NCBI RefSeq assembly: GCF_000024005.1
Contig: NC_013132.1
Location: 3,032,001-3,096,000, forward strand
DNA length: 64,000 nucleotides
Direction of reading: 5' to 3'
DNA from: Chitinophaga pinensis DSM 2588
GTDB lineage: Bacteria > Bacteroidota > Bacteroidia > Chitinophagales > Chitinophagaceae
Shown in pieces: positions 33,750 through 36,168 of the stretch. A program made the position numbers and the translations under genes. The notes beneath the pieces are model-generated. The model saw only the letters and a list, made by a program, of their open reading frames with translations, ran no database searches and had not been told where the DNA came from. Position 1 is the first letter of the stretch. Each line of letters begins with the position of its first letter.

Positions 33750-34715
33750 ATGAAAGGTAGATCTTTAAAGCAGGACAAATGGCCTGTATTGAAATTTGAC
33801 GACTTGAAAGGTACATTGGCAGCCGTACATCTGTGGACACAGGTCGTAGGGAAGATCCGTCTCAGGAAGATGCCCTGGTTAAATCACTCCTGGCACGTAA
33901 CCCTGTATGTTACTGCCAATGGATTGAGTTCCGGCAGTATGCCTTATGAACATGGAATTTTTCAGATGGATTTTGATTTTCACCGACACCAGCTGGTGAT
34001 TACGGCAAGCACAGGCGGAAGAGATACGGTAGACCTGGCCCCCGGAACAGTGGCTGGCTTTTATAATGCCGTTATCACAAAATTGAAAGCCCTGGATATC
34101 CACACCGCTATATATACAACCCCCAGCGAACTGGAAGGCGCTATTCCTTTTGAGGAGGATCATGCACAGCGCCCATATGATCCGCAACAAATGGAAGATT
34201 ACTGGCAGGCCCTTGTAAGAGTGCATAATGTATTGACACGGTTCAGGTCCGGATTTACAGGCAAAAACAGCCCGGTTCATTTCTTCTGGGGTGCTTTTGA
34301 TCTGGCGGTTACCCGCTTTTCCGGCAGAGATGCCCCTTTGCACCAGGGATCTGCTCCTAACATGCCGGCAGCGGTTATGCAGGAATCTTATTCAAAGGAA
34401 GTAAGCTCCTGCGGATTCTGGCCAGGCAGTGAACAATATCCACACGTTGCTTTCTATTCTTATTGTTATCCGGGGAATGAGGCTTTTGGTCAGCAGCCTG
34501 TTCAGCCTGAAGCCGCTTTTTATAGTAATGAAATGGGAGAGTACCTGCTGCATTATGAGGCGGTACAACAGGCAGATAATCCTGAAGAGACATTACTGGC
34601 TTTTCTGCAATCCACTTATGAGGCATGCGCCAATACCGCGCATTGGGATCGTACATCACTGGAATGTGATCTGTCCCACCTGGAGAATGAATACGGATGT
34701 TATAAACAGCGATGA
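33750..34715 (+). CDS. DUF5996 family protein
   Basis: 321 residues, no signal. The family's characteristic start is clear: WPVLKFDDLKGTLAAVHLWT, then GKIRL and NHSWHVTLYVTANGL, then FQMDFDFHRHQLVI. Later blocks SPVHFFWGAFDLAVTRFSGR and FYSYCYPGN also match DUF5996. Members are soluble proteins of unknown function, widespread in bacteria. Not obviously linked to the neighbouring peptide system, though it is the gene just upstream on the same strand. Confidence 0.8.
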   Translation: MKGRSLKQDKWPVLKFDDLKGTLAAVHLWTQVVGKIRLRKMPWLNHSWHVTLYVTANGLSSGSMPYEHGIFQMDFDFHRHQLVITASTGGRDTVDLAPGTVAGFYNAVITKLKALDIHTAIYTTPSELEGAIPFEEDHAQRPYDPQQMEDYWQALVRVHNVLTRFRSGFTGKNSPVHFFWGAFDLAVTRFSGRDAPLHQGSAPNMPAAVMQESYSKEVSSCGFWPGSEQYPHVAFYSYCYPGNEAFGQQPVQPEAAFYSNEMGEYLLHYEAVQQADNPEETLLAFLQSTYEACANTAHWDRTSLECDLSHLENEYGCYKQR

Positions 34716-34851
34716 GTATTTATAACCCGGCTGTAACTTTTTATTTTACACCACGTTTAACAGGTAGTAATTCCCAGTGCCTGTAACGACTGGTAGCTGT
34801 AGTCCGGGGACAATAAATACCTATTTCTTTATTCATCTTAAAGACACAAGA

Positions 34852-35007
34852 ATGAAGCTGTCAAAATCTCTTATCAGCGCGATTCTGATCGGTATCGCTA
34901 TTCAGACAACTGTGGTTTCCTGCGGGAAAGACGAACAGCCAAAACCCAAAGAAAAGCCCAAACAAAGTCAACCGCTGGACGCTTGTCCTGCTTGTGGTAT
35001 GGGTTGA
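34852..35007 (+). CDS. Probable MNIO-class RiPP precursor, lipoprotein-like (51 aa)
   Basis: A small peptide with three parts. Residues 1-23 are a lipoprotein signal ending in VVSC (C24). Residues 25-42 form a Lys/Pro/Gln-rich linker. The end is DACPACGMG, with C45 and C48. I recognise this layout from chryseobasin-related peptides, in which Cys residues are oxidised by a DUF692 (MNIO) enzyme, and such an enzyme begins 36 nt downstream. After C24 comes GKDE, a K-plus-two-acidic pattern like the surface-export signal of Capnocytophaga lipoproteins. The ATG at 34852 is chosen because it starts the signal; in-frame codons from 34777 are not needed. The modification and metal-binding role are inferred. 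Confidence 0.75.
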   Translation: MKLSKSLISAILIGIAIQTTVVSCGKDEQPKPKEKPKQSQPLDACPACGMG

Positions 35008-35043
35008 TAACTAATCAGACATTTACGCTGTAATTTCAAAAGG

Positions 35044-36168
35044 GTGCCAAAAGTTTTATCGGCTGTTGCCTGTAATCTGGATGCAAACATCCTCGCTGCT
35101 TGTTTGCCTTTAATGGAAGAATCCAGAATAGAAGCCATAGAGTGGTCGTTCGATGCATTATATAAGGTGAAAGAAGTACCTGATTGGTTTCGGGAACTGC
35201 TGACAGCCTTTAGTGATGAAAACCGTTTGATCGGTCATGGTGTTTTCTTTTCTCTCTTTTCAGGCAAATGGTTACCTGAACAGGAGAACTGGCTAAAACA
35301 TTTATCACAGACCGCCGATGCTTTTCAGTTTGATCATATTACGGAGCACTTCGGGTTCATGACCGGTAAGGATTTTCATCAGGGTGCTCCGCTGAATATT
35401 CCATATACTGCCATTACACTCAATATTGGCAGAGACAGACTGAAACGCATATACGAGGCTTGTAAAAGGCCCGTTGGACTTGAAAATCTGGCATTCTCCT
35501 ATTCACTGGATGAAGTAAAACGACATGGCGCCTTTTTGGAACAGCTACTGGAACCGGTCAACGGTTTTATTATTCTGGATCTGCATAACCTATACTGTCA
35601 GCTGCGGAATTTTGATGTCACATTTGAAGAAATGATCGCTTTGTATCCATTGGATAGGGTGAGAGAAATACACATCTCGGGTGGCAGCTGGGAAGATTCT
35701 GTAGCTACCCCCTCCCGTAGTATAAGAAGGGATACACATGATGATGCGGTTCCCACAGAAGTGTTTCAGCTGCTTGAAATGACCATTCCACGATGTCCGC
35801 AGCTTAAATATGTGGTATTGGAACAATTAGGTAATGGACTGGAAACTGAGACAAGCAGACAATACTTTTATAATGATTTCCTCCGGATGCAGGAGATCAT
35901 TCAGCAGCATAACGATCAGGCAGATGATACTTCGACAGATCCTTTTTTGCCTTTAATACCTTTTTCAACTGACGCTGTTGTTGAAGACATGATGCTGTAT
36001 CAGCAACAGCTGGAACTGTCTGCCATATTCGAATCATCTGCATCTTATGGAGAGGCGATGCAGTCACTTTCAACATCATCACTGGCCAATTCAGACTGGA
36101 GAATAGAACAATGGGAACCACATATGATTGAAACCGCTGTTAAGATTGCACAGAAGTGGATGAAATAA
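35044..36168 (+). CDS. DUF692 / MNIO family oxidase (RiPP-modifying multinuclear iron enzyme)
   Basis: 374 residues; GTG start at 35044 preceded by AAAAGG. The family is a TIM barrel with two or three irons that oxidises peptide cysteines (MbnB, TglH, ChrH). Likely ligands are all visible: H65 in IGHGVFFS, H98 and E101-H102 in DHITEHFGF, E147 in GLENLAF, D179-H181-N182 in DLHNLY, H210 in EIHISGG, H232-D233 in THDDAVP, and E260 in VLEQLG. The barrel ends near residue 285, and an 85-residue helical extension follows. No separate partner protein gene (RRE type) is adjacent, which is unusual, so the extension may act in substrate binding. Its presumed substrate is the CPACGMG peptide just upstream. 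Confidence 0.88.
   Translation: MPKVLSAVACNLDANILAACLPLMEESRIEAIEWSFDALYKVKEVPDWFRELLTAFSDENRLIGHGVFFSLFSGKWLPEQENWLKHLSQTADAFQFDHITEHFGFMTGKDFHQGAPLNIPYTAITLNIGRDRLKRIYEACKRPVGLENLAFSYSLDEVKRHGAFLEQLLEPVNGFIILDLHNLYCQLRNFDVTFEEMIALYPLDRVREIHISGGSWEDSVATPSRSIRRDTHDDAVPTEVFQLLEMTIPRCPQLKYVVLEQLGNGLETETSRQYFYNDFLRMQEIIQQHNDQADDTSTDPFLPLIPFSTDAVVEDMMLYQQQLELSAIFESSASYGEAMQSLSTSSLANSDWRIEQWEPHMIETAVKIAQKWMK

Follow-up and report, generated by a model that had tools for sequence, protein, structure and literature searches.

A lipoprotein-like precursor gene and an MNIO gene

The window considered here comprises 64,000 nucleotides of Chitinophaga pinensis DSM 2588 (contig NC_013132.1, positions 3,032,001 to 3,096,000), in which two genes on the forward strand form a compact unit. 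The first (34852..35007, ATG start) encodes a RiPP precursor peptide of 51 residues of the ChsA/DybA type, assigned by the adjoining enzyme gene and by its match to the NCBIfam family NF050125 ('chryseobasin-related MNIO class RiPP peptide') with 74.2 bits at a cut-off of 40. The peptide starts with a lipoprotein signal peptide (MKLSKSLISAILIGIAIQTTVVS; 34852..34923, forward strand) whose lipobox VVSC, judged from the sequence, makes Cys24 the predicted lipidation site, continues with GKDEQ and a charged linker, and ends with the core CPACGMG (residues 45-51; 34984..35004, forward strand). It thus has the C-terminal CPxCGxG motif of precursors of the ChrH/DybH subfamily and, between signal and core, the lipobox cysteine. 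From the chemistry reported for relatives (PMC12636315), Cys45 and Cys48 are the predicted site of a macrocycle and hydantoin with a mass shift of -4 Da. The sequence-only reading of this DNA had described a 51-residue peptide with lipoprotein signal and CPACGMG end 36 nt before a DUF692 gene, and both open reading frames were confirmed.

The second gene (35044..36168, forward strand, GTG start) encodes an MNIO (DUF692) enzyme of 374 residues that scores 107 bits against PF05114 (cut-off 25) and is the only match to this family in the genome, a single contig of 9,127,347 bases. Against NF050165 (MNIO_ChrH) it reaches 405.3 bits, below the curated cut-off of 600, and therefore it is not the ChrH equivalog (the chryseobasin maturase); the scores for the bufferin and oxazolin maturases BufB (86.5 bits, cut-off 310) and HvfB (72.1 bits, cut-off 360) are far below threshold as well. 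The expected iron ligands noticed at first sight are indeed present: all ten named candidates (H65, H98, E101, H102, E147, D179, H181, H210, H232 and E260) were found, nine of them invariant among 41 aligned enzymes and H98 conserved in 40 of the 41, an alignment that retains 41 of the 55 rows in hand after 14 near-duplicate or broken ones were dropped. E147, D179, H181, H210, H232 and E260 align with identical residues of TglH, and we infer from the alignment with TglH and 3bww that the ten residues bind iron. An AlphaFold2 model of the enzyme (pLDDT 90.8) forms a TIM barrel with TglH and MbnB as best PDB matches. Beyond the barrel, where the matched MNIO structures stop by residue 300, the model contains helices at residues 316-331, 335-343 and 359-371 (residues 316-371; 35989..36156, forward strand), as expected for the extra C-terminal helical domain of the ChrH/DybH subfamily.

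The start of the enzyme gene differs from that of a public gene model. A protein search returned 2301 relatives at E <= 0.001, and among the best 120 of these is a protein of 351 residues (P0001) that is 100% identical over 94% of the window enzyme and, by its length, must start at M24. Since residues 1-23 show conservation, the GTG start at 35044 is supported, and the public model probably starts 23 codons late. Some related genes depart from the common form: in L084 and L086 (genomes G052 and G053) the enzyme has 404-405 residues instead of 374 and two matched segments overlap at query residues 278-294, in L095 (G064, a genome 65% complete) the gene is split over two frames, and L043/L100 (G123) holds a ChrH-like gene containing an inner TGA.

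Pairing and genomic context of the cassette

The enzyme is present in 39 of 79 Chitinophaga genomes (E <= 1e-20), and in 39/39 of these loci a precursor gene adjoins it, 38 being recognized by the core pattern and one (G042) by a CPACSMG ending. Conservation of the peptide beside DUF692 genes in relatives had been named as the test of the RiPP interpretation, and the interpretation passed it. Conversely, an enzyme gene adjoins the peptide gene in all 12 loci from other genera of the family in which the peptide model scored over its cut-off. Together with four loci from 395 genomes of the phylum (a fifth, in G095, was already among the 12), the 39 Chitinophaga loci and the 12 of other genera (195 genomes searched) make up a set of 55, window included. 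In 53 of these the pattern identifies a precursor ORF directly ahead of the enzyme gene; L088 has one ending in CPACSMG, and in L100, where the enzyme gene is interrupted and close to a contig end, no precursor was found. The pairing is not due to chance, as 41 of the 45 occurrences of CxxCGMG followed by a stop codon in the 79 genomes adjoin the enzyme gene. The remaining four leave little room for other proteins as substrates in trans, within a search that covered the G-M-G form, from which CPxCGLG and the like would escape: two of them end in TGG rather than a stop codon, and three are in genomes that lack the enzyme.

The core tolerates some variation in nature, with CPFCGMG in L033, CIACGMG in L075 and L091, CLACGMG in L110 and CPACSMG in L088; variants such as CIACGMG and CLACGMG indicate that its proline is not strictly conserved. 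Two precursor genes ahead of a single enzyme gene are found in L081, L082 and L085 within Chitinophaga and in L102, L103 and L107 in other genera, the extra precursor ending in CPPCGRG in L102 and in CITCGRG in L107.

How constant are the surroundings of the pair? Among neighboring ORFs of at least 80 codons no cluster besides the pair itself recurs in more than 15 of the 55 loci, and no gene for a partner protein accompanies the cassette, which is a two-gene block with varying flanks. The commonest neighbor clusters, classified by eye, resemble ECF sigma factors (15 loci), SusC-type receptors (14) and FecR-type proteins (10), all at scattered positions. Such genes occur in many copies in these genomes. 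The SusC-type neighbors agree with a remark on SusCD made in the preprint on related systems (PMC12636315). A DUF5996 gene just upstream in the window (33750-34715) was considered as partner and rejected: among 13 relatives it lies elsewhere in nine, beside the cassette in Chitinophaga sp. YR627 only, and was not found in three.

Strain YR627 is syntenic with the window across nearly the whole compared stretch. In the next nine relatives (L033-L037 and L064-L067; enzyme 83-85% identical to that of the window), the DNA alignment to the window stops at the end of the enzyme gene (36160-36168) in 9/9 and begins around the promoter described below (34719-34754) in 7/9, the beginnings in L037 and L035 lying at 34823 and 34835, and this comparison aligned nothing else in their flanks to the window. 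In more distant relatives chiefly the coding part aligns. A genome-wide search in 13 relatives found the other genes of the window elsewhere or missing, YR627 excepted. Apart from this syntenic strain, what the nearest relatives share with the window is thus limited to the gene pair and the region upstream of it. In some cases two relatives have more of their flanks in common, which indicates that turnover of the neighbors took place in certain lineages only.

Across 14 close cassettes the nonsynonymous rate (dN) is 0.045 for the signal peptide, 0.094 for the enzyme and 0.018 for the core, and dN/dS is 0.057, 0.071 and 0.023, respectively. The idea of an extra constraint on the signal peptide was therefore only partly borne out: its amino acid change is half that of the enzyme, but synonymous change is lowered as well (0.79 for the signal and 0.80 for the core versus 1.31 for the enzyme), so that, with a dN/dS of 0.057 versus 0.071, the signal peptide is constrained about like the enzyme. 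In other lipoproteins taken from syntenic pairs, a small and noisy set, conservation of the signal often falls short of that of the remainder.

The putative promoter pattern and its probable link to lipoprotein genes

Upstream of the precursor gene lies a putative ECF-type promoter (34732..34760, forward strand; pattern match G000:C1:3066732-3066757), consisting of TGTAAC (34732-34737), a 16-nt spacer and CGTTTAA (34754-34760). The pattern was read off a few cassettes and later sharpened on the cassettes themselves. In its refined form, GTAAC-N16/17-CGTTNNA, it is found ahead of the precursor gene in 40 of 42 cases within Chitinophaga and in none of 18 outside the genus; the looser TGTAAC-N14-19-CG is found in 36/42 and 0/18 upstream regions, respectively, at a background rate of 0.019 matches per 260 bases. 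The regulatory reading accordingly holds at the level of the genus. The 40/42 for the refined form were obtained with GTAAC[ACT]TT..CGTT; of these regions 35/40 have a T ahead of GTAAC, and in 40/40 the last base of CGTTNNA, the seventh, is an A. The two upstream regions missed by the refined pattern are those of L069, which fits the looser form, and L085_0, which has none.

When 15 upstream regions of the close clade are aligned, steady conservation outside syntenic pairs begins at TGTAAC. A -35 box and a CGT-containing -10 box at near-fixed spacing, separated by a spacer that drifts, have the structure of an ECF promoter, and a CGT -10 box in a promoter class of Bacteroidota has been read as ECF-type (PMC9723704), the example being the SM6 regulon of Flavobacterium psychrophilum, for which we claim no homology. 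From this conservation we infer that the GTAAC..CGTT pattern acts as an ECF-type promoter of the cassette. Among the matches listed by literature searches, which cover few subscription journals, no paper ties the pattern to Chitinophaga or to DAG-RiPPs, and the word 'promoter' is absent from the main text of the preprint that describes the latter (PMC12636315). The same alignment reveals a second conserved element in the 5'-UTR, GTAGC(C/T)GTAG..GGGACAATAA (34793..34816, forward strand), aligned with some variation, for which an Rfam search gave no match at E <= 0.1.

The pattern is not confined to the cassette. In the genome of the window TGTAACYTTTN{12,13}CGTT has 6 sites versus 2 for the reversed pattern, and GTAACNTTN{13,14}CGTTNNA has 12 versus 3. 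Of the other 11 sites, 6 precede what by eye resemble lipoprotein genes, among them a site with a pair of FKBP-type genes, and 5 do not; none of the 12 precedes an obvious sigma factor gene. The six sites (positions 650451, 1536130, 1649405, 7869921, 8111012 and 8130778 of G000:C1; L148, L151, L152, L156, L157 and L158) were scanned with Pfam, which identified the two FKBP-type proteins at L156, while six other lipoprotein-like proteins match no family. The lipoprotein-like genes behind these sites form a candidate lipoprotein regulon. In five other Chitinophaga genomes TGTAACNTTN{13,14}CGTTNNA has 37 sites versus 3 for the reversed pattern. Loci were obtained for 30 of the 37, and 2 of these are the cassette itself, leaving 28; the cassettes of G044 and G013 do not fit the strict pattern. 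With lipoproteins called by a simple lipobox rule and a site counted when one of the two longest ORFs starting within 330 nt is lipoprotein-like, 19 of the 28 sites are followed by such an ORF compared to 60 of 618 random intergenic points taken from Chitinophaga loci (Fisher P 1.7e-12, a value that overstates the case, as the sites include orthologs in different genomes and hence are not independent, as L184 lies within longer open frames and as open-ended ORFs were allowed for the sites only). Considering the longest ORF alone the counts are 18/28 and 38/618, and under a slightly stricter rule 41 of 531 genes in the loci are lipoprotein-like. As the promoter pattern precedes lipoprotein genes elsewhere in Chitinophaga, the precursor peptide is probably part of a regulon of envelope lipoproteins.

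It could be imagined that the boxes merely reflect common descent of the stretch, or a promoter of general use, and are uninformative on lipoproteins. The whole block is indeed common to close relatives by descent, and the upstream regions from outside Chitinophaga lack the pattern. Against this explanation, the boxes stay while the spacer drifts, and the sequence further upstream is unalignable outside syntenic pairs; the excess over the reversed pattern in the five genomes and the enrichment of lipoprotein-like ORFs, uncorrected for orthologs, also speak against it. We therefore regard this explanation as unlikely and retain the link of the promoter pattern to lipoprotein genes.

Predicted product and possible role of the cassette

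Systems of this kind are already in print, as DAG-RiPPs were described in a bioRxiv preprint of November 2025 (PMC12636315); new are the distribution and pairing in Chitinophaga, the promoter pattern and the link to lipoproteins. According to the preprint, the DybA/DybH pair of Dyadobacter crusticola yields a product of -4 Da with a macrocycle and a hydantoin at CPACGMG and one free thiol, DybH needs no partner protein, the core motif alone suffices for the enzyme, and DybA is triacylated in E. coli. The -4 Da shift is reported there for DybA, ChsA and HymA with their enzymes, structure and lipidation for DybA, and for the ArlAH pair both -4 Da and +10 Da forms. The window pair resembles DybA/DybH in the CPACGMG end, the lipobox cysteine, the lack of a partner and the C-terminal helical domain; it differs in genus and in that product and lipidation, measured for DybA, are predicted. 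ChsA/ChsH of Chitinophaga sancti, likewise an MNIO with its precursor and a -4 Da product, comes from the same genus and another species, and the name 'pinensis' is absent from the main text of the preprint. The published mass of ChsA (7013.45) agrees to 0.002 Da with that of the His-tagged precursor of L069 (7013.452), and L069 is on this ground probably ChsA/ChsH; its enzyme is about 80% identical to that of the window and falls together with it into a clade of 11 rows (support 100/99). In the same scan a mass match of HymA with L033 turned out to be due to chance, as HymA ends in CPGCGLG.

With both protein families above their cut-offs and the peptide beside the enzyme in every Chitinophaga locus, the minimal MNIO RiPP pair with a predicted lipid-anchored peptide proposed by the sequence-only reading stands, and we consider it very probable that the window harbors a self-contained cassette of two genes, belonging to the ChrH/DybH subfamily and making a lipoprotein-RiPP hybrid (DAG-RiPP). 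Product, location, regulation and role of this particular pair are predictions, for which the relatives supply the chemistry and the lipidation. Briefly, the ECF-type promoter would drive a short operon, and the cytoplasmic MNIO, unaided by a partner protein, would bind CPACGMG at the C-terminus of the peptide and use O2 for a four-electron oxidation (-4 Da), creating a Cys45-Cys48 macrocycle and a hydantoin and leaving one free thiol. The modified peptide would then be exported by Sec, receive a diacylglyceryl moiety on Cys24, be cleaved by signal peptidase II and reach the outer membrane, perhaps oriented to the outside, where it may play a role alongside the other lipoproteins that have the same promoter pattern. 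The outward orientation is suggested by CGKDEQ after the signal, which is consistent with surface export in view of the described export signal C-X-K-(D/E)2-X (PMC5080379). This signal is fitted fully by 15 of the 42 Chitinophaga precursors, and CxK[DE] is present in 35, the seven without it being the L034 precursor and a CN-type or CQ-type sequence that is present in six copies. As CxK[DE] is common among the listed lipoproteins downstream of the promoter pattern, CGKDEQ argues but weakly for surface exposure.

What might such a peptide be made for? A lipid-anchored ring could act as an antagonist or bind lipid II, and the authors of the preprint point out a resemblance to the B ring of the lantibiotic nisin (PMC12636315); however, no immunity or export gene is kept beside the cassette, which consists of two genes in changing contexts, and we consider such a function improbable. 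The sequence-only reading had suggested another role, in which the two central cysteines are converted to a copper-binding group on the lipid-held peptide; such a peptide would act as a copper buffer. Methanobactins, bufferins and oxazolins, which belong to the same MNIO superfamily, do bind copper, and some of them have lipoprotein signals (PMC12636315; PMC12452194); moreover, the free thiol retained in the DybA product would allow for copper binding. These systems differ, however, from the window pair in their core motifs, their partner proteins and their copper-binding heterocycles. As described in the preprint, the DybA product lacks a chromophore, namely a UV-vis feature of the aromatic kind known from methanobactin or bufferin (PMC12636315), the EGKCG motif of oxazolins is absent from the window peptide, and the window enzyme scores far below the BufB and HvfB cut-offs. 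Nor do neighbors provide a link to copper: by eye no copper gene is among the ten commonest neighbor clusters of the 55 loci, none of which recurs beyond the number given above, and a Pfam scan of nine proteins encoded next to the promoter pattern, six of them lacking any family match, identified none either. No result obtained here supports this part of the reading, and copper buffering has become highly improbable.

An S-methylated product of +10 Da as in chryseobasin is just as hard to maintain, since, although ChrA/ChrH shares the CPACGMG core, the subfamily and the extra C-terminal domain of the MNIO with the window pair (PMC10214503) and ArlAH gave both forms, the window enzyme stays below the NF050165 cut-off, the two enzymes that exceed it (L038/L039, the same places as L096/L097) have precursors without lipobox and sit on a separate long branch, ChsAH, HymAH and DybAH yield -4 Da (PMC12636315), and, unlike the window pair, the Chryseobacterium operon is described as containing chrI, chrE and chrP, its precursor as not lipidated and its product as S-methylated (PMC10214503).

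Given the promoter pattern before lipoprotein genes elsewhere, the most likely reading is that the cell produces the peptide jointly with other lipoproteins, as a small component of its envelope or surface. More specifically, and as a serious possibility rather than a probable one, the DAG-RiPP may be a surface-exposed member of a lipoprotein regulon controlled by an ECF sigma factor and not a stand-alone secondary metabolite, the cassette keeping its own regulon promoter while its neighbors change and the oxidized C-terminal ring serving envelope or vesicle biology. In the Dma/Das system of Bacteroides, ECF21 factors (Das) set the output of vesicles (PMC13088901), a parallel for which homology is not claimed either. 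The occurrence of the promoter pattern at nearly every Chitinophaga cassette and before other lipoprotein genes points to envelope physiology, and for lipidated macrocyclic peptides, the chemistry of which is known, the shared promoter offers a route to their purpose.
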